Assembly: GCA_902825965.1 (NCBI GenBank)
Contig: CADEDA010000029.1
Coordinates: 1 to 33,906, forward strand
Source: an uncultured Gemmatimonadota bacterium
Lineage (GTDB): Bacteria; Gemmatimonadota; Gemmatimonadetes; Gemmatimonadales; Gemmatimonadaceae
DNA: 33,906 nt
Direction: 5' to 3'
Shown piece after piece: positions 5,729-21,760 of this stretch (position 1 is its first letter; each line of letters begins with the position of its first letter). Below the pieces are notes generated by a model. It saw only the letters and a program-made list of their open reading frames with translations, was not told the origin of the DNA and did not search any database. The position numbers and the translations under genes are program-made.

Positions 5729-7726
5729 CTAGAGCCGCTCCACCCCCAGCGACGCCAGGTACTCGAACGTCTCGTCGTAATACGCCGGCACCCGCGTATG
5801 GTCACCCGCATCCCCCGGCGGCACAAACACCACCATCCCCTGCCGCGCCCGCGTGAGCAGCACGCGGTACGCATTCAGCAGGTAGCGCTGGTCCGCCTCC
5901 TTGTGGACCCGCTTCCACGCCCCGCCGTGGAACTTCCGGTGCAGCCACTCGCCGCGGCTCATTCGCAGGTCGGCGTCCCAGGTGGCACAGATCCAGTCCA
6001 GCTCGAGGCCCTGCACCTGGAACTCCGTGGCCGCGTCCTCGAGGTAGAACGACGACCGTGTGTCGTCGCGCTCGTCGAGGAACCAGTGGACCGGATCGAT
6101 GTCCACCCGCACGTCGATCGCGTGTGGCTTGAGCCGCTCGGCCTGTGACGAGGCGACGAGGCCGTAGCGTTCGCTCCCGCGGGCCTGTGCGCGCACCCAG
6201 GCCTTCGCGCGGTCGAGATCGCGGGTGATCACGAGCGGATACCGCGGGCGCAGCTCCTTGTACAGCGCGCGCGCCGCATCGTGATCGTGGTCCAGCACCG
6301 CCTTCACGAATCCAGAGACCCGTTCGGCGCGGAATGAGCGCATGGAGACCGAGAGATGCAGGTCGTCGCTCCAGACCACGTGGGCGCGGCCGCTGAGGGC
6401 CTTGATGGCCTCGCCCGCGCCGAACTCGGTGTCGGTGAGCCGGCTGGAGATGTAGACATGCCAGTGCGGAAAAGCATCCCGCACCGCGTCGAGCCAGGCC
6501 TGAATGCCGGCCTCGCCGTCGTGGATCTCCTGCCCGCCGCCCACCAGACACACCGCCACCGCCCAGTCGGGGTGGCGATCCATATAAGAGAGCTGGAACT
6601 CGGGCTCCGACATCTTGAAGTCCGGGATCCCCTTCTTGCCCTTCATGAAGCGCGCGGTCTTCTCGCGATTCCAGGCGCGTTGCGCTTCGTCGAAGACGAC
6701 CACGTGGTCCACCGGCGGCGCGTTTGGGTCTCGAATGCCGTCGTCGCGGAAGTGGTGCACGTTCTGGATGAACGGCTTCACCTGCTGCCCCACTTCCTTC
6801 TTGGTGACGCGCTGCTTCTCGAGCTTGAGCCGCGTGACCTCGTCGCGGGTGAGTGCCTCGTGCAGCACCTTCACGAGCGGGCCGTTGCCTGAGAGGAAGA
6901 CGGCGTGGGTCGGATCCTCCGTCACGGCGCGCCGGTGCCGAGTGGCGATGTTGAGCCCAACGAGCGTCTTCCCCGCCCCGGGGACACCGGTGACGAACAC
7001 GATGGCCTTCCACCCGTTCCGCTGCGCTTCGGCGATCACCTGCTCCACCGTGCGAGACGTGACGCCGAGGTTCTTGGCGCTGGCGGAGCTTCGGGAGATG
7101 GCCTCGACCGAGTGGCGCGCGTAGAGTGCGCGCGCGGCCTGGACGATGGTCGGTGTGGGTTCGTACGCCGCTCGGCCCCACGTCTCGCCGTCCAGCGCGG
7201 GACCATCAGCGCGGGCGATTGCGTCGAGCACTGCTTTCCGAAGGCCCTCGGCGTTCACGCGCCGAGGTGGGCGCACTCCGTCGGCGTGGGGCGCGGGCCA
7301 ATCGGCGTCGGACCGGGTTGCCTCGGTTGCGACCAAGAGCGGGAAGATTGAGGCGCTGTGGCTGCCCCGGTGGAAGTTCTTCAGGTCGAGGGCGTAGTCC
7401 CACGCCTGCTCGAGGTCTGCCGGCAAGTACTTGGTCGCGCCGACCTTGAACTCGATGGGGATGACTGCGCTGCCGCTGACTACGACGGCGTCGATTCGGC
7501 TGCCAAGTCGGGGGACGTCGAACTCGAGGAAGAGGTGGCCCGACACTCCAGCGACGGCAGTGCGCAAGAACTCCACTTCGTCAGCCCATGCGCGGACTTG
7601 CGCGGGGTCGACGGCTCCGCGGCTAGCCTGGGTGAGTGCTCCTACGATCTCGTTGGCGGAGGTCGGGAGGAAGGACTCGATGGGGGCGGCGTAGTAGGCG
7701 GAGGTGCGGGAGGCGGTGTCGGGCAC
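5729..7726 (-). CDS. PD-(D/E)XK domain fused to DUF2075 helicase-like ATPase
   Basis: A 665-residue protein from a GTG at 7726 with a weak purine-rich site upstream. Residues 60-100 carry a PD-(D/E)XK-type nuclease core: Asp79 in SRIDAVVVSG and Glu92-x-Lys94 in IPIEFKVG. The second part is a DUF2075 (superfamily 1-like) motor: Walker A GVPGAGKT at 247-254, Walker B-like VVVFDEAQRAW at 342-352, the AVCLVGGGQEI motif, and near the C-terminus FQVQGLELDWICATWD and NAYRVLLTRARQGMVVFVP. DUF2075 proteins occur widely in defence loci. Predicted role: nucleic-acid translocation coupled to cleavage. It is the last gene of the minus-strand defence run, 84 bases after its upstream neighbour. Confidence 0.85.
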   Translation of the reverse strand: MPDTASRTSAYYAAPIESFLPTSANEIVGALTQASRGAVDPAQVRAWADEVEFLRTAVAGVSGHLFLEFDVPRLGSRIDAVVVSGSAVIPIEFKVGATKYLPADLEQAWDYALDLKNFHRGSHSASIFPLLVATEATRSDADWPAPHADGVRPPRRVNAEGLRKAVLDAIARADGPALDGETWGRAAYEPTPTIVQAARALYARHSVEAISRSSASAKNLGVTSRTVEQVIAEAQRNGWKAIVFVTGVPGAGKTLVGLNIATRHRRAVTEDPTHAVFLSGNGPLVKVLHEALTRDEVTRLKLEKQRVTKKEVGQQVKPFIQNVHHFRDDGIRDPNAPPVDHVVVFDEAQRAWNREKTARFMKGKKGIPDFKMSEPEFQLSYMDRHPDWAVAVCLVGGGQEIHDGEAGIQAWLDAVRDAFPHWHVYISSRLTDTEFGAGEAIKALSGRAHVVWSDDLHLSVSMRSFRAERVSGFVKAVLDHDHDAARALYKELRPRYPLVITRDLDRAKAWVRAQARGSERYGLVASSQAERLKPHAIDVRVDIDPVHWFLDERDDTRSSFYLEDAATEFQVQGLELDWICATWDADLRMSRGEWLHRKFHGGAWKRVHKEADQRYLLNAYRVLLTRARQGMVVFVPPGDAGDHTRVPAYYDETFEYLASLGVERL

Positions 7727-7810
7727 GCCTTATGTTGAGGGCGTGCACGGGAGATCGCCAGGTGCCGGCTCCATTGCGACAATCGCGGTCTGCCGGTGCT
7801 GCCAGTCGGT

Positions 7811-8863
7811 CTAGGCCGGCGTCGTGAGGAACTGCAATGCCTTCTTCGGCGGCTGAGGGAAGTGGTACCCGCCGTGCTCACGATACGAGCGGCTCTCGAT
7901 GACGTTCGGAAAGACGTCATAGAACTCATGCTTGGTGAGCGAGAACGTCCCAACCGGCGTCTCAACTGCAAACCGGTCGCCTAGAGCCAGCGGCTCGATA
8001 AGATCACGCTTGAAGTGCAGGCGCGTCGCACGATACGTCAGTGCGATCGGTCCGGAGTCACCCGGCACGGCAGCGGCTGGTGGTCGGACAGTTGCGCGTC
8101 GGGCGGCTGGCTTGCTAAGAGCGGTGTCCTCAGGTGGATCAGACGCGGACCGAGCGATTGAGATCCGCACATCCCCATTCGCTCGCGCGAGGCCACGGTC
8201 ATCCACGCCGCCGAGCTGAAGGAACTCCTTCCACACCTCCCCGTACCGCTCAGCATGTCGGGCCGCCATATATCCGATCACTCGTGCATCCCCGCCCCAT
8301 CGCTGCCAGTCGGTCTTTGGCAAGAGGAAGTAGTTGACTGGATGGATGTTGCGGATGAAGCGTCGGGTAAGCTCGACGCGACCCCATCGGGTGAAGTCCG
8401 TGTCGCGATCCTTCACGTCGAAGATGTGGGCGATGTGCCAGCCGGAGTCCGCCGGCGTGGACGCCGAGCGCTTGGCGACATCGAACATGTGGCATGGGAT
8501 GGTTTCAAATACTTCGCGCGTAGCACCCGGCGATATACAGTGACCGGCGGCGAGCGCGGCGTAGGTCCACCACGCGGGGGCGTTGTCGGTGGCGACGAAC
8601 GAGTAGCCGTCGGCGGCCGGGGATTGCGCGCGGCGTTCGGTGCCGCGGACCTTGCGTAGGAGAAAGTGCGGGCGTTGGGACGCAAGATTGCGCTTGAGGG
8701 CGTTGTGGAACTCGCGTACTAGAGTGGCGTCTAGTGCTGCGGGTTCTAGATGCTCGCGGTAGAGAGCGTCGAGGGACCCTTCGAATGCGAGAGGCGCTGG
8801 ACCAATCTTAGCACGCTCTCGCAGCGCGGTCCGGGCGGCGGCCGCGGAAGTCAGTATCGCCAT
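7811..8863 (-). CDS. Unknown protein with an HNH-like motif
   Basis: Likely 350 residues from ATG 8863; the frame is open to 8968, but that would overlap the upstream gene by about 55 bases. I do not recognise the family. The best clue is residues 142-177: GWHIAHIFDVKDRDT, then RRFIRNIHPVNYFLLPK. The order His143/His146, Asn172, His174, Asn177 resembles a beta-beta-alpha-metal (HNH) nuclease core. Residues 245-275 are a low-complexity Ala/Pro/Arg linker, followed by a small beta-rich C-terminal domain (about 275-350: FAVETPVGTFSLTKHEFYDVFP). It sits between DUF4268 and DUF2075 genes on the same strand, so a defence role is inferred from context. There is no clear ribosome site. Confidence 0.7.
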   Translation of the reverse strand: MAILTSAAAARTALRERAKIGPAPLAFEGSLDALYREHLEPAALDATLVREFHNALKRNLASQRPHFLLRKVRGTERRAQSPAADGYSFVATDNAPAWWTYAALAAGHCISPGATREVFETIPCHMFDVAKRSASTPADSGWHIAHIFDVKDRDTDFTRWGRVELTRRFIRNIHPVNYFLLPKTDWQRWGGDARVIGYMAARHAERYGEVWKEFLQLGGVDDRGLARANGDVRISIARSASDPPEDTALSKPAARRATVRPPAAAVPGDSGPIALTYRATRLHFKRDLIEPLALGDRFAVETPVGTFSLTKHEFYDVFPNVIESRSYREHGGYHFPQPPKKALQFLTTPA

Positions 8864-8913
8864 TGCAATGGATAGAGACTGAGGCTGAGTGGGTATCCGA
8901 AGGTCTCGAGTAC

Positions 8914-9849
8914 TTACGCCATCTCTTGAGCGATCGCGCGGAACTTCAGTAGTTGCTTTGTCATCCACTCAAACAGTTCCGCACGCGCGGGCTCTTCGGC
9001 CATCACACGCTCCTTATCGTACTGTCGGTAAACCGCGACTCGGCTGGCCTTGCGGTGATCTAGTCGCTCCCAGCTAATCGTCTCCCCGGCGAATTGCCTC
9101 TCGATCTCCGATCGCCGTGCAAAGAGCGAGTCAAATTGCCGTTTGTTCTCGTCGTTTGCAAAATAAAGCTCCACTCGCATCCGGCTCTCTTTTGCCATGG
9201 AGACGTTTGTTTCGACCCCACTCCTCCCGTTCGAGAACTCCAGCCAGTTCACTCGTCTTGCGGAACGGCCAGCTGCCCAACCATGACCGTTCACCTCGAG
9301 ATAGGCGAGATATTGACGCCAGAACTGAAGACGCATGCGGTGCCGTGGAGCTTCACTTTGCTCGACGATGTCTGAAAGCTCGTTTTCAAACTCGCTTGGT
9401 GCCACTTCGACCACAAAGTCAAGAGCGGGTGCAGAACCGTTGATGCTGAGGGCACGCGGGCGCACCAGATAGAGCCCGACACGTCCAGCGAAGTTCTGAT
9501 TCAGCCAGTCTGCAGCCGCCCGGTGTTCGTCCCGTACCTCACCAGCGACCCAGACAACAATCTTGGCATTGAGGCCGCCCGCGTACGCCAGCAGCTGGCC
9601 GAAATGTGAGTGATCCGTCTTCTCCAGCTGGTTCTCGATCACGACCAGATCTTCAGTCTCAGCCACGCGTCCGAGGATGTCCAGCTCATAGTCACCCACG
9701 CGACTCTCGGTCGAGTCGACCTCTACCTCGATTCCGAGCGCCTCGGACAAGAGATGAATGTTTGCGGCAAGCCAAGGCGTAAAATCGCGTTCCTCGTGCG
9801 GAAAGACCTCGCGAAGCGTTAGTGTCTTAAGTGTTCCGATGTTTGGCAT
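8914..9849 (-). CDS. DUF4268 family protein, PD-(D/E)XK nuclease-like
   Basis: A 311-residue protein. The N-terminus (LREVFPHEERDFTPWLAANI, then a GDYELDILG strand) and the VVIENQLEKTDHSHFGQLLAYAGGL motif are characteristic of DUF4268 proteins. The putative catalytic set is Asp57 in YELDILG and Glu72-x-Gln74, a PD-(D/E)XK variant with Gln in place of Lys followed by conserved Lys77. Residues 180-311 are the helical/beta C-terminal DUF4268 part (HRMRLQFWRQYLAYLEVNG and later VELYFAND). Such proteins are common in restriction-rich loci; their exact target is not established. It starts 9 bases after the stop of the Mrr-type gene, so they are probably one transcript. Confidence 0.85.
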   Translation of the reverse strand: MPNIGTLKTLTLREVFPHEERDFTPWLAANIHLLSEALGIEVEVDSTESRVGDYELDILGRVAETEDLVVIENQLEKTDHSHFGQLLAYAGGLNAKIVVWVAGEVRDEHRAAADWLNQNFAGRVGLYLVRPRALSINGSAPALDFVVEVAPSEFENELSDIVEQSEAPRHRMRLQFWRQYLAYLEVNGHGWAAGRSARRVNWLEFSNGRSGVETNVSMAKESRMRVELYFANDENKRQFDSLFARRSEIERQFAGETISWERLDHRKASRVAVYRQYDKERVMAEEPARAELFEWMTKQLLKFRAIAQEMA

Positions 9850-9858
9850 TCCCTTCTC

Positions 9859-10743
9859 CTATTCCGGTGCCAAGAAGTACACGGCCTGCAACGGCAACCT
9901 TCTCTGATCCTGATCCGGCATCTTCGGATAGTTCGCCACCCACAGGTCGAACAGCCTCTCGAGGTCGATGAGGGTGACCTTCCGAGTCGCCTGCAGCCGC
10001 GCCTCTTCGCGCGCGTCCTTCGTGAACCCTCCGAGTGACACGTACAGCCCAACATCGTCATTGCCGAGAGTCGCAAGGAAGGATCGCAGACCGTCAACGC
10101 TGATGGGCGCCACCTGCCGCTTGACCTGCACCTTGATTCGCGGAGACCGGGTACCAAGGGGGTCTGGGGCCGCGACGAGGTCCACGCCGCCGTCCTTGCC
10201 CGGGGGAGCGGTCCAGACGATGTAGTAGCCGAGCGCGCGGAGGAGGGCGGCCACGAGATCCTGAAAGTCGTAAGGGTTCATCGCGCCGATGAAGGCTTGG
10301 ACCTCGGTCCAGGACGACTCTTCAGCCTCCTCCAAAGTGATTGACGCGACCTTAAGAGCTTGCCTTTCCTCGTCTGCCGCCTCGTCCGCATAGGCTGGCT
10401 GCTGACGCTTCCACTGCTGAAAGAGCGCGACTGCGGCCTTGTAGAACTCCTCTGGGTCGCGGAGTCGGTCGTAGGCTTCCTTGCCCTCCGCGGTGACAGA
10501 CCAGCGGCCCTTCTGCTTGAGGAGCCAACCGGCTTTTACGCAGTCTACGGTGGCGAAGCGGACGATCTTCTCGAACCGGCGACCGCCGGACTCGTACTCG
10601 CCGGCCTCGTAGGGGGTGAGCTGCGTCTTTGCTTCGAGCCTCGTGAGTGCTTCGCGCGCGGGGAGGCCGTCGGGGGCGGCGAGTAGGAGGTCGAAGAGTA
10701 GGCGAAGATGTTCGCCGGTGCGGCGGCGGGTGACTTGGGCCAT
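9859..10743 (-). CDS. Mrr-type restriction endonuclease
   Basis: A 294-residue protein from ATG 10743. Residues 1-95 form a winged-helix-like N-terminal domain (GEHLRLLFDLLLAAP, KAGWLLKQKGRWSVTAEGKEA) as in Mrr_N proteins. Residues 155-265 are the Mrr catalytic domain: FQDLVAALLRALGY, GKDGGVDLVA with Asp188, and KVQVKRQ with Gln206-x-Lys208, the D-QxK version of the PD-(D/E)XK site typical of Mrr. Mrr enzymes often cut methylated or otherwise modified foreign DNA, as type IV restriction. The local methyltransferase hsdM could in principle place marks it must tolerate. It lies 55 bases downstream of the HNH gene and 9 bases upstream of the DUF4268 gene. Confidence 0.9.
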   Translation of the reverse strand: MAQVTRRRTGEHLRLLFDLLLAAPDGLPAREALTRLEAKTQLTPYEAGEYESGGRRFEKIVRFATVDCVKAGWLLKQKGRWSVTAEGKEAYDRLRDPEEFYKAAVALFQQWKRQQPAYADEAADEERQALKVASITLEEAEESSWTEVQAFIGAMNPYDFQDLVAALLRALGYYIVWTAPPGKDGGVDLVAAPDPLGTRSPRIKVQVKRQVAPISVDGLRSFLATLGNDDVGLYVSLGGFTKDAREEARLQATRKVTLIDLERLFDLWVANYPKMPDQDQRRLPLQAVYFLAPE

Positions 10744-10798
10744 GGCTCAAGGTACAGGCGTGTACAAAGGCCAGCCATAGCCCTCGGAAGCGCCGAAC

Positions 10799-11737
10799 CT
10801 AGCCGAGGAAGACCTTGTCCCGGTGCCACTCCAGCAGCTGCCGGTCCGGCGGTGGGTGGCCGGCCGTGGGTGCCGCTATTCGGGTGCGATCCATGGCGTA
10901 GTACGTCTTCCCGTTCTGCCATGTCTCCCGAAGGCTCTCGCCAACCCTGAACTCGTAGTCCGGCGTGACCGTGACGTACCCGGCATCGAAGAGCTTGTGC
11001 AGGTCCGCGCGGAGCAGGAGCCCGTTCTCCAAGCGATGCTCGCCGCCGAGTGCGTAGGGCTTGATGTGCGCAGCTTCCAAAACGGGGACGCTATGTTCGC
11101 GCGTGACGGCGCAGGCGCCGTTGTAGGCGTCCCGGACGGCAAAGCTGAAGAGTCCCTGCCCGAGGCGCGGTGTCACCTGAACCGGGCTTCCGTATCGCGG
11201 CTGTGGCTCGGCAGCGCGATCAACGTTCCAGCGGGTGTTCGCTATGAGTGCACGCGCCATACACTCATCCAGGACCCGCCGCCCTTCGCCAGTCGTGACA
11301 TCGTAGCGCTTGCCGACCTGCACTCCCGTCACGGGCCAGTCGGCGGGGGCGTCGACCAAGTCGGACTCGGGGAAGAACACTGGCGCCGCGAGCATGATGC
11401 AGCCGATGGTGAAGTCTTGGCGATCGGACTCACCGGGTGCTCGCAGTCGTCGGAGGCGGTCGAGCAACTCGGCAAAAGTCGCCGCGCCATTCATCGGGCC
11501 AAAGGTCTCCCATGCGAGACGCGCAGAGAGGATTTCGTGCCGTTGGAAGAAGCCGAAGCCAGCAATCTTGCGCTGGGGCGCCCTGAGCTTGAAGAAGAAC
11601 GGCGCACCCGGTTCGACGGCGCGAAAGGCGCGACCGCCGTTCGGCTGCCAGAAGTTGACTTCATCGACGTTCGGCTGGCGTGAGAGGAATCCGTGCCACT
11701 CGGGGTCGGTGAGGGCGATGAAGCCGAGGGTGCTCAT
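10799..11737 (-). CDS. HNH endonuclease with N-terminal PUA-like domain
   Basis: A 312-residue protein. The C-terminal part is a standard HNH nuclease (HNH_2 type): GACAVTREHSVPVLEAAHIKPYALGG, then RLENGLLLRADLHKLFDAG, giving His224, Asn238 and His247. Residues 10-130 (DEVNFWQPNGG, GAPFFFKLRAPQRKIAGFGFF, LAWETFGPMNGA) resemble the PUA-like EVE/ASCH group. Members of that group recognise modified bases and are often fused to nucleases. A modification-dependent (type IV-like) restriction role is therefore inferred, not shown. It is the first of five co-directional nuclease-like genes and follows the broken lipoprotein frame by 30 bases. Confidence 0.85.
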   Translation of the reverse strand: MSTLGFIALTDPEWHGFLSRQPNVDEVNFWQPNGGRAFRAVEPGAPFFFKLRAPQRKIAGFGFFQRHEILSARLAWETFGPMNGAATFAELLDRLRRLRAPGESDRQDFTIGCIMLAAPVFFPESDLVDAPADWPVTGVQVGKRYDVTTGEGRRVLDECMARALIANTRWNVDRAAEPQPRYGSPVQVTPRLGQGLFSFAVRDAYNGACAVTREHSVPVLEAAHIKPYALGGEHRLENGLLLRADLHKLFDAGYVTVTPDYEFRVGESLRETWQNGKTYYAMDRTRIAAPTAGHPPPDRQLLEWHRDKVFLG

Positions 11738-11767
11738 GGACGGTGGCGAGAGATGACGCTGGCGGGG

Positions 11768-12175
11768 CTACGGCTCGATGGTGAAGGCGAGTGTGTTGCC
11801 ATTGTTCGTCGCCTGCAGGCGCTCGCCGTCCTGCAGGATTTTGAACCTGACGGCGCCCATGAGCGCCACCTGTCCGGAGTTAATGACTACCGAGAGCGTG
11901 TCCCCGCTGATCGTACCTACGAGCGCGGCCTCATCGCTGGGAATGCCCGTGCGGAATCGATACTAGCCTTCGACGGTCGAGCCAGTCTGGACGATCATCA
12001 TTCGCGAGTCAACGAAACAGGCCACCAACGCGCACGAAGGATCCGTACTGTATGTGGTCCTGCCGGACCAGAAGCCGGTCAGGTCGTACTCCTTGGGCTC
12101 CGCCGATGAACTGCATGCACTCGCAACGATGGCTGCCGTTAGGAACACATCCCTTTCGGCTCGAAGCAATCTCAT
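11768..12175 (-). pseudogene. Small lipoprotein broken by an in-frame TAG
   Basis: From ATG 12175, with an AGGAGAG ribosome site just upstream, the frame reads a lipoprotein signal (FLTAAIVASAC lipobox) and YDLTGFWSGRTTY, a lipocalin-like or META-like opening. It meets TAG at 11963-11965 after 70 codons. The same frame continues coherently without any other stop for 64 codons, YRFRTGIPSDEAAL to GNTLAFTIEP, ending at TAG 11768-11770. The unbroken protein would be about 135 residues, so one nonsense change (for example CAG to TAG) appears to have split it. A short secreted product of about 70 residues could still be made. It lies between hsdR and the HNH gene on the same strand and has no obvious defence role. 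Confidence 0.7.
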
Positions 12176-12220
12176 GATCTCTCCTCTCACATTGAGCTGA
12201 CTGGCGAACATCGGCCCGAG

Positions 12221-15200
12221 CTATGCCAAGCGCGCCCTCGCTTCCACCGCCTCGATCGTCGCGAATAGCCGAACAACGTCCGCTTCAGCAAACAGCCCTT
12301 CCGGACCCCTCGGCGAGAGATCAGTGAAAGGCGACTCGTACAGCCGCGCCGCCGGCATGGCGCCGTGGGCCGTAAGGTGGTCGACCACCAGATTAATGAA
12401 TTCGAGCTGGTTCGCCGAAAGCGTGCGCCCCGCGATAAACCCGGCCATCGCTTCCTTCGCCGCCTCGCGTTCGAGGCCGATAAGCGACCGCACGAACGGC
12501 CCAAGCCCACGTCCGTCTTCGGCGGCCTGCTTAATCTCTTCAGGCGCACCAACTCCGCTTTCGGCGAGCATGCGTTCGAGCTCTGCAAGATCCTGCGCTG
12601 TCAGAGGCTTGTTCCGATGCAGCTTCGCAATTGCCACGTGCTCCAGATGTCCGCGCAGAAACGCCTGAGCCTTTGCCCGGAACTTCGCCGCATTGGCTCC
12701 AACGCTGAACCCGGGAAGCTGAACCGCCTGCTCTTCCCCGAGCTGGTCCTCGAAGTCGGTGTAGATCGGACGGCGCTGCCTTTTGTCGATGAACTGCACG
12801 AGCCCACGAAGCCGCCGACGCATCCGCTCGAGCATGGGCACCGTGACGTCCTGCCACCACTCGTCCGACAGCAAGTCCTGAATGAGCGCCATCTGGTCCC
12901 GCACCATCGGGATCGAGTCCTTCTCCGACAACAAGGCGGCTATCGCCTTCACCTTGTCGCGCAGACGCTCGAACCCGTGATCGGTAGTCAGCACCGCCAA
13001 CTGCAATCGAAGCGCAAGCAGGTCGAAGCGCTTCGCCTCCTCTTTCTCGGCGTCAATCTGTGAGGGAAGCCCTGCGATCTCCTGCGACAGCTTCGCTCCG
13101 ACATCGGGCGTGAGCGTCACCCATGCCTCAGGCTTGGAGAACGTCTCCACGAGACGCCGATGCGGCCGCACGATGAAGTTGTCGCGGTTCATCGCCGCCA
13201 CTTCGGTGCGCAACTGCTCGACGACGGCACGGCGTACTGCATCATCAGTGGACGGGTCCACGTACGATTCGTTGGGCTCCTTCACCAGACCTCGCGCTTC
13301 CGTGGCCTCTTGGGCTCCGATGGCCACGATGAGTTCAAGGCGCGCATCGAACAGGCGCTTACCGAGCGACGCTCCGACGCTACCATCACTTGCCGCAAGG
13401 TTCTGGCTGAAGAACTCGAGGTTCTGACAGTAGTCGAAGACGTAGAAGAACTTCTTGTGCTCACCTGGCCCGAAAAGGTCGGGGCACAGGCGAGTGCCAC
13501 GTCCCAGCATCTGCCAGAACTTGGTCTTCGATCGGACTAGCTTGAAGAAGACGAGGTTGACGACCTCCGGCACATCGATGCCGGTGTCGAGCATGTCCAC
13601 GGAGATTGCGATGTGTGGGGCCTTCTCCTTGTTGGAGAAGTCGTCAATCAGGCTCTGCGCATACTCAGTCTTGAACGTGATGACCCGCGCGAACGACCCC
13701 TTGAGATGCGGGTAGTTCACATCGAAGCGCTCGGCGATGAACGCGGCGTGTTCCTGATTCTTGGCGAAGACGATCGTCTTGCCGAGTCGGTCGCCGCCAG
13801 CCACCTTGGCGCCGCGAGTCATCAGGTGCTCGAGAACCTTGTCGACCGTGTCCTTGTTGAAGAGCCATCGATTGACAGCCTCCGCCTCGACCCGATCGGG
13901 GACCGCGCCATCCTCATCCCACTCAAGGGCATCCCACTCGTCCTTGTCGTCTTCGGAGAGCTCGTCATAGCGGATGCCCTCGCGCTGGAACTTGAGCGGC
14001 ACCGACACGGCCTGCGGGGGCACCAAGAACCCGTCGCGCACTGCCTCTTCCAGTGAGTAGGCATCCGTAGGGACGCCGTCTTCGAGGTCGAAGAGCCCGT
14101 AGGTGTTTCGGTCGACCTCGTCCTTTGGGGTGGCCGTTAGCCCGACTAGGAACGAATCGAAGTAGTCGAAGATGGCCCGATACTTCTGGAACACCGACCG
14201 GTGTGCCTCGTCGATGATGATAAGGTCGAAGTGGCCCACCCCGAACCGTCGCTGCCCGTCCGCCGCCTCATCGATGAGGCCCATCATTGTCGGATACGTG
14301 GAGACATACACTCGGCTATCGATGTACTTCTCCGTGACCAGGTTCACCGGCGGGGTGTCGGGCAGGAACGACTTTATCGCGTTTGCCGCCTGATTGACCA
14401 AGGCCACCCTATCGGCGAGGAACAGGATGCGCTTGGCCCAGTTGCATCGCATCAGCAGGTCGCACAGCGCGATGACGGTGCGCGTCTTCCCCGAGCCCGT
14501 GGCCATCACCAGCAGCGCCCTGCGGTCGTGGTCGCGCTCGAAGGCCTCGGCAACACGTCGAATGGCCCGCGTCTGGTAGTGGCGCTCGACGATGGACGCG
14601 CTGACCGGCGCCTCGCCCAGAGGCCGGCGCGTCGTGCGCCGCTGGATCAGGAGCTCGAGTTCCGCCTTCTTGTGGAAGCCCTGCACGCGCCGTGGCGCGT
14701 AGCGGACGTCATCCCAAAGCCAGTGGTCGTAACCGTTGGAGTAGAAGATGACCGGGCGCTGCCCGAACATCTTCTCGAGGCAGTCGGCGTAGAGCTTGGC
14801 CTGCTGCTGCCCGGCCCGCGGGTCGCGGCGTGTGCGCTTGGCCTCGACCAGGCCCAAGGGCCGGCCGTCGTCGCCCCAGAGCACGTAATCCACGAAGCCC
14901 TTGTCTTGGCCATTCGGCATCCCCGCGACCTCGAACTCCCGATCGCGCGCCTGATCGAGGGGCCAGCCGGCCTCCTTGAGCAGAAGGTCGATGAAATAGT
15001 CCCTGGTCTCGGCTTCCGAGTAGTCGTGCGTGTCCGGTACGGCTGCCGCGGACTGCTTGGCCGTGGCTACCTCGGCGCGTAGCCGCTGCAACTCGTCGTC
15101 GAGGTTGGCCTTGTCGACCAGCAGCGCCGCGAGGTTCTCGTCCTTCGACCGCAGGCTCGCCTCGAGCGCCTGCAACTGCTCGGCAGTCGCTGGGGACGCC

Positions 15201-15634
15201 CGCTGCGGGCGAGGAAGAGCGTCAGGGTTGAACGTAAGCCCGGGCGCAGGACGGTCACCGCGGGCGTAGGTGCGGGCGAACCAGAAGGCGACATGGAACA
15301 GCTCGCGGACGGCGACCAAGGCGTCCGCCTCCGGGACCTGCCGGTGCCCGTGTACGGCACGATTGCCGAGCGTGTTGATGACGCGAGCTTTGCTGAAGAC
15401 GGCCTCCCCAGCCACATGCTTGAAGGTCGGCTCGTGGATGAGCGCGGAGAGGTTGTCCTGATACGGCAACCGAAGGGAAGCGTCGTGCTTGAAAGCCCAG
15501 GCGACCGCGAGTTCGAGGGCGCGCCGCGCGTAGAAGCACGCTGTTCTCGCATCCGAATGAACGGACTGTTCGGCACGCGCCGCGGATTCAAACATCGAAC
15601 TCCAATGAGTTCTCAGAAACTCGAACTGACTCAT
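12221..15634 (-). CDS. hsdR: Type I restriction enzyme, endonuclease/motor subunit HsdR
   Basis: A 1137-residue protein, normal length for HsdR. Domains in order: a DUF4145-like helical domain (about 1-125), a coiled coil (152-197), the HSDR_N nuclease core with Asp249 (KGFVDYVLWG) and Glu264-Ala-Lys266 (LVEAKRT), then a superfamily 2 motor with Walker A MATGSGKT (377-384), DEAH box IIIDEAHRS (472-480) and motif III VGLTATP (497-503). Motif VI-like QMLGRGTRL and an EcoEI-type C-terminal region follow. It pulls DNA through the HsdM-HsdS complex and cuts at a distance from unmethylated sites. The ATG overlaps the stop of the unknown gene upstream by 4 bases (ATGA), so translation is coupled. 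Confidence 0.97.
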   Translation of the reverse strand: MSQFEFLRTHWSSMFESAARAEQSVHSDARTACFYARRALELAVAWAFKHDASLRLPYQDNLSALIHEPTFKHVAGEAVFSKARVINTLGNRAVHGHRQVPEADALVAVRELFHVAFWFARTYARGDRPAPGLTFNPDALPRPQRASPATAEQLQALEASLRSKDENLAALLVDKANLDDELQRLRAEVATAKQSAAAVPDTHDYSEAETRDYFIDLLLKEAGWPLDQARDREFEVAGMPNGQDKGFVDYVLWGDDGRPLGLVEAKRTRRDPRAGQQQAKLYADCLEKMFGQRPVIFYSNGYDHWLWDDVRYAPRRVQGFHKKAELELLIQRRTTRRPLGEAPVSASIVERHYQTRAIRRVAEAFERDHDRRALLVMATGSGKTRTVIALCDLLMRCNWAKRILFLADRVALVNQAANAIKSFLPDTPPVNLVTEKYIDSRVYVSTYPTMMGLIDEAADGQRRFGVGHFDLIIIDEAHRSVFQKYRAIFDYFDSFLVGLTATPKDEVDRNTYGLFDLEDGVPTDAYSLEEAVRDGFLVPPQAVSVPLKFQREGIRYDELSEDDKDEWDALEWDEDGAVPDRVEAEAVNRWLFNKDTVDKVLEHLMTRGAKVAGGDRLGKTIVFAKNQEHAAFIAERFDVNYPHLKGSFARVITFKTEYAQSLIDDFSNKEKAPHIAISVDMLDTGIDVPEVVNLVFFKLVRSKTKFWQMLGRGTRLCPDLFGPGEHKKFFYVFDYCQNLEFFSQNLAASDGSVGASLGKRLFDARLELIVAIGAQEATEARGLVKEPNESYVDPSTDDAVRRAVVEQLRTEVAAMNRDNFIVRPHRRLVETFSKPEAWVTLTPDVGAKLSQEIAGLPSQIDAEKEEAKRFDLLALRLQLAVLTTDHGFERLRDKVKAIAALLSEKDSIPMVRDQMALIQDLLSDEWWQDVTVPMLERMRRRLRGLVQFIDKRQRRPIYTDFEDQLGEEQAVQLPGFSVGANAAKFRAKAQAFLRGHLEHVAIAKLHRNKPLTAQDLAELERMLAESGVGAPEEIKQAAEDGRGLGPFVRSLIGLEREAAKEAMAGFIAGRTLSANQLEFINLVVDHLTAHGAMPAARLYESPFTDLSPRGPEGLFAEADVVRLFATIEAVEARARLA

Positions 15635-16584
15635 TTGTCCGCCCAGAATTCCACGATCCTCTTTCTGAGAGAACGCGCCATACTGCGCCAGCTCATGAGG
15701 GGCTGCGAGGCCGACACAGCACGCTCGGGAACCCTACTCCTCGTCGGACTGAGCGGTGTCGGATCAGGGAACAGCGCGGTGAGGTCGAGTGAATGATCGA
15801 TATAGGGAACCAGTCCAAGTAGCATCAAGGACACCCCAGCTAAGTCGCGATCATCCAGCTCTCTATTGACCGCTTTCGGATTTCCAGAGTGACCTAGACC
15901 CGGATAGTCGGAGCGGAATCCGTAGATTTGTCCTGCTGCAGACTTTAGAGTTTGATGTGGCCACGAGGCTCGCTTACATAGCTCACCGAGTGTGCCGCCA
16001 CCGCCACTAACCCGAATGTTGGCGAGCCCTTCGACGAGAATGAACTGCTTGGCCAAGAACGCCTTGATGCGACCTTCTGTGCGCTCATACCTAAGGTCTC
16101 GAAGCGACTCTTCGAACTCACTGTGCAGCTTAGCCAGATGAGCATCAGATTTGCTTGTCACCCTGATGTGATGGACGACAGTCGTAACCAAACCCGGAAG
16201 AGTGGGACACAGAATACACGGCCTTCGCAAGTCGTATCGCAGGCTGTACTTTTCGATGAACGCAGCGAGCAGATTGAAATACACATTCGAGACCTCGTCG
16301 CCGCCGAGCTCCTCCAGTGAATCGAACGCGAATTCGAAGAAACGAACCAACTCGGCTTCGCCCAGAAAGTCGGTCGAAACCGTAGTGTCGAAAGCCTCGC
16401 GACTCTCCATTGGATTCGCGACCACTTCGACGAGCTGCTGCGCGGACGGCTGACTACGAAAAGCTCTCACCAGATCGCGATACAGGTCGCAATAGACAGT
16501 ATCAGAAACCTCGCTACGCTCGCTAAGCGGTTCCCAGATGTTCTGCCGCGTCTCGGCCCACACATGGACAAACTCGCCACGCAT
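15631..16584 (-). CDS. Unknown accessory protein between hsdS and hsdR
   Basis: A 317-residue protein that I cannot place in a family. It starts 2 bases after the hsdS stop and overlaps the hsdR start by 4 bases, so it is an integral part of the operon. The protein is mostly helical (DLYRDLVRAFRSQPSAQQL, LVRFFEFAFDSLEELGG). Residues 118-126 contain LRRPCILCP with a CxxC pair. Residues 219-236 read QIYGFRSDYPGLGHSG, which recalls the R...GxGH(G) signature near the C-terminus of abortive-infection and HEPN-like proteins, with Arg224 and His232. That resemblance is weak; R-x7-H is longer than the usual R-x4-6-H. A regulator of the nuclease or a second, abortive effector are both possible. Confidence 0.85.
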   Translation of the reverse strand: MRGEFVHVWAETRQNIWEPLSERSEVSDTVYCDLYRDLVRAFRSQPSAQQLVEVVANPMESREAFDTTVSTDFLGEAELVRFFEFAFDSLEELGGDEVSNVYFNLLAAFIEKYSLRYDLRRPCILCPTLPGLVTTVVHHIRVTSKSDAHLAKLHSEFEESLRDLRYERTEGRIKAFLAKQFILVEGLANIRVSGGGGTLGELCKRASWPHQTLKSAAGQIYGFRSDYPGLGHSGNPKAVNRELDDRDLAGVSLMLLGLVPYIDHSLDLTALFPDPTPLSPTRSRVPERAVSASQPLMSWRSMARSLRKRIVEFWADK

Positions 16585-16586
16585 AT

Positions 16587-17780
16587 CTACAGACTTCCTT
16601 CAAAGGCACGAGCCTGCAACGATGCGAACAGTGAATCGAGCGCGAACGCCTGCTCGCTCTTCAGATCCGATAGCGCCTCAAGCTTTCGAATTGCCCTCTC
16701 GAACTGCTTCTGTCGGCTCGGAGGAGGCAGGATGACTTCAAGATGCTCGATCGCATCCTTCGTGATGGCTTCTCTCGTGGCTCCTGCCCCGGCTAGACGA
16801 AGCAAACGCCTCTTAAACGAAGGATAGAGTAAGCATCTTTCTAGAAACACGGCACAGAAGCTCTCAGTCGGTCTAATAATCGCTACATGCTGATTCACCC
16901 GCGCCGGAAGCAAATCGGACGGCGCTCGACAGACTCTGGCGACACTCGCTCCTGTGATGTTGAGCAGGACATCTTCCTCATGAACAGATACGCCGTTGAG
17001 CTTCTCAGCTTGGTGTTCGTCGATGAAGGTCAAGCCTTGTCGAGAGAAGTAGCCATCTCGCACATTCATACTTCTGATTAACGAGATCCCGCTCGTCTTG
17101 TAGGACGGCTCGCCACCTGCAGGCGTCGCTCCACTTCCGATTTTTGTCGTATGCTCACCAAGCGGCACCTCTGGCCACCCCATAGGATTGGTCGCGGGGT
17201 CGCCGAACATGTCGAGAAAGATGGACTGAGCGATGGCGTCAAGCTGAGCGAGCGCGACGCGGCGCTTTGCCCGCAACGCATCGGCCTGATCGAGGACGGC
17301 CACGATTCGCCGCTGCTCGTCGATCGGGTAGGAAGGGATCCGGGACTCAAGAACAATCCGATCGGATACGGCTGGGTAGCTCGCCCCCGTTGCCTTCCGC
17401 ACCATATCGGCAATGAACCAGGGGCTTCGAACCCAATGGTACAGGAACCGACTATCGAGGTGCTCGCCAGGGCGAAGTACGCAAAAGCCCGTGGATGCGG
17501 TAGCTCCGTCCAGATGGGCAGGAACTTGAGCGACACCATTCAAGTTGGGACGGACGGTCGAGACAAGTACGTCACCTGCTCGTACGAGCTGTCGCGCCCG
17601 GCTCGGAGCCTCCGAACACGGAAGCTCTCGCTCACCCGTAACGGCTTTCGTCTCCTGATCGACTGCGCTCAAGTCGATGTAGGTGAACGATCCGTCCGGG
17701 TCGTCTCGCTCCGGGTTCCACGAACGCACCTCGCCAACGAGTTCGGCCATCGGCAGGTGGCCAGTGGTTCCACTTCTCAT
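16587..17780 (-). CDS. hsdS: Type I restriction enzyme, specificity subunit HsdS
   Basis: The start is the ATG at 17780, which overlaps the hsdM stop by 4 bases (ATGA) and gives 397 residues; the frame is open to 17837 but the overlap start is better. It has the usual double layout: target recognition domain 1 (about 10-150), helical conserved region 1 (DEQRRIVAVLDQADALRAKRR and LDAIAQSIFLDMFGDP), target recognition domain 2 (about 200-340, opening WPEVPLGEHTTKIGSGATPAG), and helical region 2 (QKQFERAIRKLEALSD and SLFASLQARAFEGSL). It sets the bipartite DNA target for both methylation and cutting; the target cannot be read from the sequence. Confidence 0.95.
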   Translation of the reverse strand: MRSGTTGHLPMAELVGEVRSWNPERDDPDGSFTYIDLSAVDQETKAVTGERELPCSEAPSRARQLVRAGDVLVSTVRPNLNGVAQVPAHLDGATASTGFCVLRPGEHLDSRFLYHWVRSPWFIADMVRKATGASYPAVSDRIVLESRIPSYPIDEQRRIVAVLDQADALRAKRRVALAQLDAIAQSIFLDMFGDPATNPMGWPEVPLGEHTTKIGSGATPAGGEPSYKTSGISLIRSMNVRDGYFSRQGLTFIDEHQAEKLNGVSVHEEDVLLNITGASVARVCRAPSDLLPARVNQHVAIIRPTESFCAVFLERCLLYPSFKRRLLRLAGAGATREAITKDAIEHLEVILPPPSRQKQFERAIRKLEALSDLKSEQAFALDSLFASLQARAFEGSL

Positions 17781-19330
17781 CCGAGCATCCCCTCCAACTC
17801 CTTCATCCCCCGTTGGATCTCCTCTTCCAGTTGCCACAACTCAGCGAGGATGACCTTCGGCGGCCGGTGCGCCACCGCCTCCTGGACGACTTCCTTGTAG
17901 CGGTTGAGCGACAGATCGTAGCCCTGCGCTGCAATGTCAGCCTTGGACACACAGAAGCTCTGCGCTGTCCGCGGGCGCTCGCGCTCGCTGCCGTTTCTCT
18001 GGCTCCACCGGGCAACGACGTCCGGCAGGTTGTTCTTCCCGTGCTCGTCGTCCGTCAGCGCGATCCGCGGCGCGGCGCCCAGCTTGTCATCCGAAAGTAG
18101 TGGCGTCCGCTTGTCGTCGAGACTCCAGCCGTCGGCCTCGATGTCGTAGAACCAGACGTGCCCGGTGCCGCCGGAGTTGGTCTTGGTGAAGAAGAGAATG
18201 GCCGTCGAGACGCCCGCGTATGGCTTGAACACACCGCCCGGGAGAGAGACGACGGCGTCAAGCTTCTGCTCCTCCACAAGGACACGCCGCAGCTCCCTGT
18301 GCGCCTTGCTGGAGCCGAAGAGTACCCCATCGGGCACGACGACCGCCGCGCGCCCGCCGGGCTTGAGCAGTCGCAGGAACAGCCCGAGAAAAAGGAGCTC
18401 GGTCTTCTTCGTCTTAACAATCTGCAGCAGGTCCTTGGCCGTGTTCTCGTAGTCGAGACTCCCGGCGAATGGCGGATTGGCCAGGACGAGCGTGTACTTC
18501 TCCTCCTCCCCGGCGTGGTCCTGTGCCAGCGAGTCGCGGTAGCGGATGTCCGGGCCCTCCACGCCGTGCAGCAGCATGTTCATGCTGCCGATGCGGAGCA
18601 TCGTGTTGTCGAAGTCGAACCCGTGGAACATCCGGTGGTGAAAGTGGTCCCGCTGCGCCGCATTGTGCAGCAGCGTGGGATGCCGCTCACGCAGATACTC
18701 ACCGGCCGCCACCAGAAACCCGGCCGAGCCGCACGCCGGGTCGCAGATGACGTCGGTGGGCTGCGGGGCCGTGAGCTCGACAATCAGCTGGATGATGTGC
18801 CTTGGCGTGCGGAACTGCCCGTTCTGCCCGGCGCTCGCAATCTTGCCGAGCATGTATTCATACACGTCGCCCTTGGTGTCGCGGTCGTCCATGGGTAGGT
18901 GGTCGAGCAGATCCACCACCTTTGCCAGCAGCGCGGGCGTGGGGATGGTAAAGCGCGCGTCCTTCATATGATGCGCGTAGGTGGAGTCCGCACTCCCCAG
19001 CTGGCGCGGCAGGTCCGAGCGCAGGAAGGGGAACACATGCTCCCCCATCACGACGAACATCTCGCTCGGCGCGAGGTGCTTGAGGCGCGACCAACGGAGG
19101 TCCTCGTAGGGCCGCCCCTTCGGGTCTTTAGCCTCCGCGAAAATGCGGCGCTCCATTGGCTTCTTGAGCCGAGTGGCCTTGTTCTCCTCCAACGTGTGGA
19201 GGTCGTCGAGGCGGCGGATAAACAGCAGGTAGGTGATCTGCTCGATCACCTCCAAGGGGTTCGCGATGCCGCCGGTCCAGAAGGCATTCCAGAGCTGGTC
19301 GATCTGGGTCTTGATCGGGCCGGTAATCAC
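17777..19330 (-). CDS. hsdM: Type I restriction enzyme, N6-adenine methyltransferase HsdM
   Basis: A 517-residue protein. Start GTG at 19330 with a strong AAGGAG site 9 bases upstream. Helical N-terminal domain (LWNAFWTGGIANPLEVIEQI and YLLFIRRLDDL). The catalytic part has the SAM-binding motif CDPACGSAGF (about 196-205) and the adenine methyltransferase motif NPPF (285-288). Two copies with HsdS form the modification enzyme, which marks host DNA and licenses HsdR to spare it. First gene of the hsd operon; about 170 bases separate it from the toxin gene upstream, so it probably has its own promoter. Confidence 0.97.
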   Translation of the reverse strand: MITGPIKTQIDQLWNAFWTGGIANPLEVIEQITYLLFIRRLDDLHTLEENKATRLKKPMERRIFAEAKDPKGRPYEDLRWSRLKHLAPSEMFVVMGEHVFPFLRSDLPRQLGSADSTYAHHMKDARFTIPTPALLAKVVDLLDHLPMDDRDTKGDVYEYMLGKIASAGQNGQFRTPRHIIQLIVELTAPQPTDVICDPACGSAGFLVAAGEYLRERHPTLLHNAAQRDHFHHRMFHGFDFDNTMLRIGSMNMLLHGVEGPDIRYRDSLAQDHAGEEEKYTLVLANPPFAGSLDYENTAKDLLQIVKTKKTELLFLGLFLRLLKPGGRAAVVVPDGVLFGSSKAHRELRRVLVEEQKLDAVVSLPGGVFKPYAGVSTAILFFTKTNSGGTGHVWFYDIEADGWSLDDKRTPLLSDDKLGAAPRIALTDDEHGKNNLPDVVARWSQRNGSERERPRTAQSFCVSKADIAAQGYDLSLNRYKEVVQEAVAHRPPKVILAELWQLEEEIQRGMKELEGMLG

Positions 19331-19500: not shown

Positions 19501-20481
19501 CTAGGTGAAAACCGACTGCCGCGACACGATGCCGTGATAGGCGAGGCAGTCTTCAACGAGAAGCTCCACCTCGACGCGCTTGGGGTTTCCTGCGAAGGGC
19601 TGTTCCCAAGTCTGCGGAGGCTCTTTCACGCCGCTCTCGTAGAACAGCTCCGTGCCGGTATCCGCGTCCACGATTCTGAGCGCCATGCGATAGTCACCGC
19701 GCCGGCGGAAGACCCGAAAGAACACCCTTCCCTCGGTCAGTCGGACTTCCTCTACATGGAAGCCCTGTTCGCGATAAAAGAGACCGCGTCCGACTGGGAC
19801 GATCCTGATTCGGTCGGACCACTTTGCGGCGTCCGCGCCCAAGACATGAAGCAGCGTTTCACGCTCAGCACCGGTGCGACACACGACCAGCTTGAGCGCA
19901 TCCAGCTTCAGCTCCTTCGCCTTCACGATTTCGGCGTGGCGACGGAACTTGAGCTCGTCTTTGCCAGGCGGTGTGCAATACGGTCCGTCGTGGTAGACCC
20001 ACTGCATGGGGATCGAACGCAGGAACTCAGCGTCGTCGCCCATCCGGTACCGAGCCGCGTTCGCCATCCCGCCGTCAGTGAACGAGACCCCCTGCATCGT
20101 GAGAACTGTCGACAGGTCGAAGAGCAAAAAGACCGGAACTGGGCAATGCTCGGAGGTCGGGGGGATCTCAGCCGTACGTCGGATTCCCTCCATCATGTAC
20201 TGCGTCGGAGTGAGCGGACGGAAAAAGAGACGCACCCAGTCGTGCGCGTGAGGGGTCTGCTGGATCACACTCTTGTTCGCCGCGTCGTAGAACTCGATCT
20301 CTCGCGCCTGGCACTCCTTGCGGCTCAGCAGCATGCCGGAGCGGAGTATGGCCGCAATCGAGATCAAGTTGTCGAATCGAAACGCGAACTGTGGCCACCA
20401 CGCTCGGCGCTTATCCTTCCCGATCTGCGAGGGTAGATTCGCGATCCACTCGCGTATCGCGTCGGCGTCCGGCTTCAGCAA
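19501..20481 (-). CDS. darT: DarT-like DNA ADP-ribosyltransferase toxin (DUF4433) with C-terminal extension
   Basis: A 326-residue protein starting at a TTG at 20481, 3 bases after the antitoxin stop; the next ATG (MLLSRKE) is about 50 codons in and would remove part of the fold. DarT features: FRFDNLISIAAILRSGMLLS near the N-terminus, VRLFFRPLTPTQYMMEG (Arg88, NAD-binding region), VPVFLLFD, VSFTDGGMANAARYR, and KFRRHAEIVKAKEL with the likely catalytic Glu184. Known DarT enzymes ADP-ribosylate single-stranded DNA in a sequence-specific way, stop replication and limit phage. Usual DarT proteins end near 210-230 residues; here about 90 more follow, a beta-rich tail (GRVFFRVFRRRGDYRMALRI). The TTG start and overlap-like spacing suggest reduced, coupled translation. 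Confidence 0.88.
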   Translation of the reverse strand: MLKPDADAIREWIANLPSQIGKDKRRAWWPQFAFRFDNLISIAAILRSGMLLSRKECQAREIEFYDAANKSVIQQTPHAHDWVRLFFRPLTPTQYMMEGIRRTAEIPPTSEHCPVPVFLLFDLSTVLTMQGVSFTDGGMANAARYRMGDDAEFLRSIPMQWVYHDGPYCTPPGKDELKFRRHAEIVKAKELKLDALKLVVCRTGAERETLLHVLGADAAKWSDRIRIVPVGRGLFYREQGFHVEEVRLTEGRVFFRVFRRRGDYRMALRIVDADTGTELFYESGVKEPPQTWEQPFAGNPKRVEVELLVEDCLAYHGIVSRQSVFT

Positions 20482-20484
20482 GAA

Positions 20485-21399
20485 TCAAACCGAGAGTGCG
20501 AGCGAGCGCTGTGAGTCCGGCAAAGACGACGGAACGACTTGTAGCGCATGCGTCCGAGTATGGAACGCGAAGTTCTCATACGACTCCGACGTCTCGACGA
20601 CCGCGATATACGAGAGCTCCGCCATGATGGGAAACACGAACGGCGCCTCGCGACTGTCGAGTGACAAGGACGTTGCGATGCCGTGTGCGCTCAGGTCTCG
20701 CCACAACTGCAAAAGGCTCTGCTTCTCGATCAAGAACACCTTACCGGCGGAACGTATCCGAATGGCCTCGCTCGGCCGCTCGGGTGGGTGCACGGGCTCC
20801 GCCGTGTACGGTGTCTGCTTCCTGAAGGTCTGGAAGACCGACTTCCGCTGAAGGACGTCGAGGATGTCCCGCCAGACCTCTGGGAATGGCAGCATTCGGG
20901 GCTCCCGATGCAGCCAATCGCGGACGCTGCGCTGCGATCGGTGCTCGGCGACCGCTCCCTTGGCGAGAGGCGGGTACATGTAGACCGGGATCGGGAGCTT
21001 CCGGAGATACGATTCCATCAACGGGCGTACATCAGCGTAGTCCAATTCACCGTTCCCGCAGCCGAGTGGTGGGAACGCTACCGAATGAACGCCTGCATCA
21101 GCATAGCTGCGCACGAACGTGTCGAGGCCGGCTTCGATGTACTCCAGCTTGGACGGCCGTCGCCAGTCCTGCTTCGTCGGGAAGTTCAGGATCTTCTTGT
21201 GGCGCGTCTGGAAGTAATGCAGCGTGCCGATTTTGAGCTTCCCGTCCAGGCAGAGCTGGTGGTACTCGTCGAACATCTCGGGGAAGTACTCCTTGAACTG
21301 GAGGGCGATTCCCTTCCCCATCGCCCCCACCGTATTGACGGTGTTGACGAGAGTCTGCGCGGGCGACTCGAACAAGTTGCCCTGAACGTACGAGATCAT
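20485..21399 (-). CDS. darG: DarG-like antitoxin, macrodomain DNA ADP-ribosylglycohydrolase
   Basis: A 304-residue protein. Residues 1-150 are a macrodomain of the DarG type: ISYVQGNLFES, NTVNTVGAMGKGIALQFK (19-36), NFPTKQDWRRPSKLEYIE (72-89, the segment bearing the lysine used for hydrolysis in this group), and FPPLGCGNGELDY (109-121). It removes ADP-ribose from DNA and so reverses the toxin. The C-terminal half (180-304) would be the toxin-binding part of DarG. It precedes the toxin gene by 3 bases, the reverse of the toxin-first order of the classic darTG operon. There is no clear ribosome site before ATG 21399. First gene of the minus-strand defence run. Confidence 0.92.
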   Translation of the reverse strand: MISYVQGNLFESPAQTLVNTVNTVGAMGKGIALQFKEYFPEMFDEYHQLCLDGKLKIGTLHYFQTRHKKILNFPTKQDWRRPSKLEYIEAGLDTFVRSYADAGVHSVAFPPLGCGNGELDYADVRPLMESYLRKLPIPVYMYPPLAKGAVAEHRSQRSVRDWLHREPRMLPFPEVWRDILDVLQRKSVFQTFRKQTPYTAEPVHPPERPSEAIRIRSAGKVFLIEKQSLLQLWRDLSAHGIATSLSLDSREAPFVFPIMAELSYIAVVETSESYENFAFHTRTHALQVVPSSLPDSQRSLALSV

Positions 21400-21686: not shown

Positions 21687-21760
21687 TCGGGACGGCGGGA
21701 TTCGAACCCGCGACCCCCTGAACCCCATTCAGGTGCGCTACCGGGCTGCGCTACGTCCCG
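21687..21760 (-). tRNA. tRNA-Pro (anticodon GGG)
   Basis: A 74-base minus-strand cloverleaf: acceptor stem CGGGACG/CGTCCCG, D-arm GCGC/GCGC, anticodon arm CCTGA/TCAGG with loop ATGGGGT (anticodon GGG), T-arm GCGGG/CCCGC with loop TTCGAAT, and discriminator A. CCA is not encoded. The 3' end points at the defence island on the left. Confidence 0.97.

Follow-up and report, generated by a model that had tools for sequence, protein, structure and literature searches.

The window (the whole stretch of 33,906 nucleotides analysed here, from an uncultured Gemmatimonadota bacterium) carries a run of five genes on its minus strand. From the open reading frames, their transcription order is PUA-like/HNH, Mrr, DUF4268, UNK (our label for a gene without a family) and DUF2075 (Table 1). 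The intergenic gaps measure 55 bp between HNH and Mrr, 9 bp between Mrr and DUF4268, 50 bp between DUF4268 and UNK and 84 bp between UNK and DUF2075, which verified the frames, order and spacing of 9 to 84 bases given in the original prediction. Upstream of the run, on the same strand, lie the DarG/DarT and type I genes. The prediction had also placed the five genes beside a type I system, and a complete one is indeed near; however, HsdR and HNH are separated by 483 bp (11738-12220) holding a broken lipoprotein-like reading frame with an in-frame TAG, which means that the run does not directly continue the type I operon. Inside that operon, the gene between HsdS and HsdR overlaps HsdR by 4 bp.

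Table 1. Genes and other features of the window, with loci elsewhere that pair HNH with a MazG-like gene
Feature	Position	Strand	Length (aa)	Description and support
DUF2075	5729-7726	minus	665	PD-(D/E)XK nuclease + SLFN-g3/DUF2075 SF1 helicase; GTG start
UNK	7811-8863	minus	350	Family-less in libraries scanned; ATG start
DUF4268	8914-9849	minus	311	PD-(D/E)XK-like (D...ENQ) + DUF4268; Pfam DUF4268 1.3e-24; PADLOC PDC-S11
Mrr	9859-10743	minus	294	Winged-helix Mrr_N + Mrr_cat nuclease; Pfam Mrr_cat 3.1e-23, Mrr_N 3.4e-08
PUA-like/HNH	10799-11737	minus	312	PUA/EVE-like N-terminus + HNH_2 nuclease; Pfam HNH_2 E 2.4e-12
Type I R-M	12221-19330	minus		Complete HsdM/HsdS/HsdR set (Pfam, PADLOC)
HsdR	12221-15634	minus		
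Gene between HsdS and HsdR	15631-16584	minus	317	Matches no known family
HsdS	16587-17837	minus		
HsdM	17777-19330	minus		
DarT	19501-20481	minus		Pfam DarT 1.1e-19
DarG macro-domain gene	20485-21399	minus		Pfam Macro 4.7e-17
tRNA-Pro (GGG)	21687-21760	minus		3' end faces island; ARAGORN
HNH + MazG-like	L163:7119-8413			
HNH + MazG-like	L164:6661-7958			
HNH + MazG-like	L165:6905-8324			
HNH + MazG-like look-alike	L017:12241-13535			

The composition of the window changes near the tRNA-Pro gene. GC content is about 0.59-0.65 across most of the stretch below it, compared with about 0.70 beyond, the exception being the DUF2075 end (0.68-0.72). The tRNA-Pro gene is likely the border of an island, and no direct repeat of its 3' end was found on the far side within the window. 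Altogether, the locus is most likely a low-GC mosaic defence island of a known kind, with the five-gene run as its nuclease-rich end. Among the five genes, GC3 was 0.80 for HNH, 0.79 for Mrr, 0.64 for DUF4268, 0.72 for UNK and 0.87 for DUF2075, and this spread (0.64-0.87) points to separate origins.

The first gene product of the run is probably a type IV modification-dependent nuclease, judging from its sequence. Its HNH part (residues 188-270) resembles that of VcaM4I (PDB 6YEX; E 2.8e-05 in a PDB sequence search), an EVE-HNH modification-dependent endonuclease (PMC7897488) of the same length and probably the same reader-nuclease layout. Unlike in VcaM4I, the N-terminal half shows no sequence match to an EVE domain in Pfam or the PDB; a reader domain is likely in this half. 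Full-length relatives, approximately 40-50% identical, were found by tblastn without other window genes in eight loci, and in three of these a MazG-like nucleotide pyrophosphohydrolase gene (Pfam) directly follows HNH, overlapping it. HNH nuclease and MazG may constitute a recurrent pair of their own, and the window HNH has no MazG-like neighbour.

The Mrr protein carries a D...QxK motif (GGVDLVA...KVQVKRQ), with both Mrr_N and Mrr_cat above the Pfam cut-off. It shares the winged helix and catalytic domain of E. coli Mrr, and both are encoded near a type I system, but it belongs to a different subfamily, its best PADLOC matches being PDC-S02 models. The DUF4268 protein is a full-length match (residues 1-310) to PADLOC PDC-S11 (PDLC04911, 1.3e-95), a single-gene candidate, and its gene has a GGAG ribosome-binding site of its own. 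DUF4268 occurs in GmrSD fusions (PMC4619093); neither of the GmrSD domains, DUF262 and DUF1524, was found in the window protein with Pfam. The gene was present in 21 of 395 phylum genomes, and its relatives were mostly solo in the 25 loci examined (20 phylum loci with wide flanks and five plasmid loci). The position 9 bp after Mrr was seen only in the window: tblastn revealed no DUF4268 near the Mrr relatives (0/6 loci) and no Mrr of the window's family near the DUF4268 relatives (0/25). Mrr and DUF4268 thus find no support as a unit, which the original prediction had favoured on the basis of their 9-base gap. The close Mrr relatives are instead found within type I R-M operons, much as Mrr goes together with hsd genes in the E. 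coli immigration control region.

UNK had no match in Pfam, NCBIfam, PADLOC or PHROGs, nor in viral contigs or phages, and the most prudent label for it is an undescribed family. Although a longer GTG frame overlaps DUF4268, homology to relatives starts near the ATG at 8863. The protein comprises an N-terminal domain with the pattern TDN...GWxxAH...R...PxN and, apart from it, a C-terminal module (residues 273-348, about 75 aa). Alignment with a distant relative (L142) revealed invariant residues that include TDN (92-94), GW (141-142), A145, H146, R171, P175 and N177. The H...R...PxN spacing falls in a strand-helix-strand-helix region according to the model and the alignment, and this motif suggests a putative HNH or His-Me finger site. 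The gene had initially been called HNH-like, a label with which the motif agrees but which neither profile nor fold searches support. None of the seven UNK members matched an HNH-family profile in Pfam, and the UNK profile, run against PDB sequences, returned chance matches only. Two AlphaFold (AF2) models (pLDDT 81.6 and 86.4) gave no significant Foldseek or VIA-align match, and Foldseek found nothing significant with either the complete model or its N-terminal domain by itself. An HNH fold was therefore not adopted for UNK. A weak match (Z ~3) linking the C-terminal module with portions of PvuII and RecU was not counted as evidence.

UNK is rare, with six copies in five genomes among 179 genomes of the host family (one copy lacking the C-terminal module) and one further copy in a Chloroflexota genome. 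A DUF2075 gene lies directly downstream on the same strand in three of the six family copies, namely in the window, in L002 (37 bp) and in L016 (12 bp), and every family genome that holds both genes has a DUF2075 directly downstream of a UNK copy, at 12-84 bp. The probability of three such pairs among six copies arising by chance was estimated at P ~3e-07 under a model that allows DUF2075 only 50 island slots in each genome and ignores shared descent, taking as independent copies that may not be so. No DUF2075 was found near the other three family copies or the Chloroflexota copy (4/7 UNK loci); in the latter, two other SF1 helicase genes follow at 344 bp. Two UNK copies without DUF2075 lie amid VRR-NUC, HNH and UDG-family genes (L014:5563-10339 and L004:7709-11496). 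In the DUF2075 tree, the window copy falls in one clade, and those of L002 and L016 belong to a second, though not as sister branches. UNK-linked DUF2075 genes in two clades imply either repeated origin of the pairing or its frequent loss. In L016 the pair appears decayed, with the UNK C-terminus lost and an in-frame TGA in DUF2075.

The DUF2075 protein matches Pfam SLFN-g3_helicase (1.7e-77) and, over residues 9-665 with the same domain order, the PADLOC candidate PDC-S41 (6.7e-270); its N-terminal D...EFK nuclease motif and its GVPGAGKT motif are conserved in our alignment. It was detected in 25 of 395 genomes from the phylum, about 22 of them from the host family. Neither UNK nor its module is present in 20 of 24 phylum DUF2075 loci, and the closest relatives of the window copy (60-65% identical) lack UNK. 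PDC-S41 is defined in PADLOC as a single gene, whereas UNK precedes it here and in two other loci. UNK and DUF2075 can plausibly be regarded as a two-gene unit and a new variant of PDC-S41. In the literature searched, no paper dealt with PDC-S41 or linked DUF2075 to phage defence. The pair is moderately supported, and no description of it was found in those papers or in the libraries scanned.

The UNK module also occurs in other settings. In L017 (8578-13535), a fusion of a DUF6998-like domain with the UNK C-terminal module is followed on the same strand by DUF4145, DUF2075, PUA-like/HNH and MazG-like genes, with gaps of 156, 77 and 55 bp, the last between DUF2075 and HNH. The DUF6998-like domain falls below the Pfam cut-off and has a PD-(D/E)XK-like motif. 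The L017 HNH gene is 43% identical to that of the window, and 8 bp downstream of it lies a 117-aa gene resembling the MazG-like genes of the other loci. Three constituents of the run in the window thus recur in L017 in a different order, and the locus counts as a fourth one in favour of a link between UNK and DUF2075. On a Bacteroides fragilis plasmid, the module is N-terminal and the second half of the protein looks, by eye, like the UNK N-terminal domain, a permuted order.

Our analysis somewhat favours a mosaic island in which HNH, Mrr and DUF4268 are separately acquired, self-contained nucleases, as DUF2075 would also be in most genomes, and UNK with DUF2075 forms a two-gene unit. The prediction that solo systems had been collected together thus holds in part, in that relatives of HNH, DUF4268 and DUF2075 mostly stand without the other genes of the run, but UNK with DUF2075 recurs, as had also been proposed. 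Judged by their families, HNH and Mrr would sense modified DNA and cut it as type IV enzymes do, complementing the type I system as a cutter of unmodified DNA. The UNK protein would either recognise the target or process it, its C-terminal module acting as an exchangeable part for docking or DNA binding, and the DUF2075 protein, with its PD-(D/E)XK nuclease and SF1 helicase, would translocate and cut. The data show the identities of the genes, their order and the recurring adjacency of UNK and DUF2075, whereas an anti-phage function, type IV activity, the target and a physical interaction of the two products are inferred from families. More tentatively, and with a somewhat smaller chance of being right than wrong, the pair may represent an undescribed defence system in which an exchangeable partner bearing the shared ~75-aa module serves a common PD-(D/E)XK-helicase effector, the module having moved between different putative nuclease domains, that of UNK in the window and a PD-(D/E)XK-like one in L017.

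Five independent single-gene systems, with the adjacency of UNK and DUF2075 reflecting mere shared residence in defence islands, would be the strongest alternative, although we consider it rather unlikely. DUF2075 is found mostly without UNK, UNK lacks DUF2075 in four of seven loci, PADLOC classes both DUF4268 and DUF2075 as single-gene candidates, and GC3 differs among the genes, including between UNK and DUF2075 in the window; the direct pair is, moreover, known from three loci only, in one of which (L016) both genes look broken, which also counts against a two-gene unit. What this alternative explains poorly is the consistent adjacency, on one strand and within 12-84 bp, in every family genome with both genes.

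It seems quite improbable that Mrr, and perhaps DUF4268 too, serves the adjacent type I R-M system as an accessory instead of working as an enzyme in its own right. Of the closest Mrr relatives in a sample of 298 phylum genomes, four (L137-L140) are embedded in type I operons, flanked by HsdS and HsdM, and a fifth (L136, 68% identical) adjoins an HsdM-like gene; DUF4268 relatives are near type I genes in four phylum loci and on a Marinitoga plasmid. However, HsdM proteins of the four operons are 82-95% identical to one another, so these operons are mutually related and reflect few independent events. In addition, HNH and the 483-bp gap set the window Mrr apart from the operon, and in Ideonella a relative is found behind a different R-M locus. 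In one of the four operons (L138), a PIN-domain gene accompanies Mrr between hsdS and hsdM.

A modification-sensing system of three to five genes, with HNH, Mrr, DUF4268 and UNK as reader nucleases served by a DUF2075 motor, had been raised in the original prediction and now appears very improbable: the single strand, the short gaps, the lack of promoter- or terminator-like sites between the genes on the coding strand and the union of UNK module, DUF2075 and HNH in L017 would fit it, but HNH is absent from 23 of 24 DUF2075 loci outside the window, the regular neighbour of HNH, where there is any, is the MazG-like gene missing here, and GC3 varies from gene to gene. All five genes were found together in no second instance among the loci read, L017 being a partial exception, and the pairings HNH+Mrr, Mrr+DUF4268 and DUF4268+UNK were absent from every other locus by tblastn with the window proteins, a search that relatives too distant for tblastn would escape. 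Absences were called by tblastn because our custom gene caller is incomplete, missing for example the window HsdS and, once, the L017 HNH gene. One five-gene machine was rejected for this lack of recurrence, with relatives of HNH, DUF4268 and DUF2075 mostly found without the other four.

The mosaic island favoured here is of a known kind, with an analogue in the E. coli immigration control region. That region combines hsdRMS with mrr, mcrBC or gmrSD (PMC12707154). Both are variable islands in which a type I R-M system lies beside type IV nucleases, including Mrr, together with toxin-antitoxin genes. The window differs in phylum, anchors and gene set, adding DUF4268, UNK and DUF2075, and in its tRNA-Pro border. 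A defence island mixing type I with type IV-like nucleases is the ordinary part of the locus, and the testable novelty is a family without an entry in the libraries scanned whose gene recurs in front of that of a Schlafen-group-3 helicase-nuclease. Should the pair prove real, it would offer a way to find out what is recognised by DUF2075 defence candidates. In three other DUF2075 loci, all from one genus (L075, L079 and L084), a small conserved open reading frame of 68-77 aa lies about 50 bp upstream of DUF2075.
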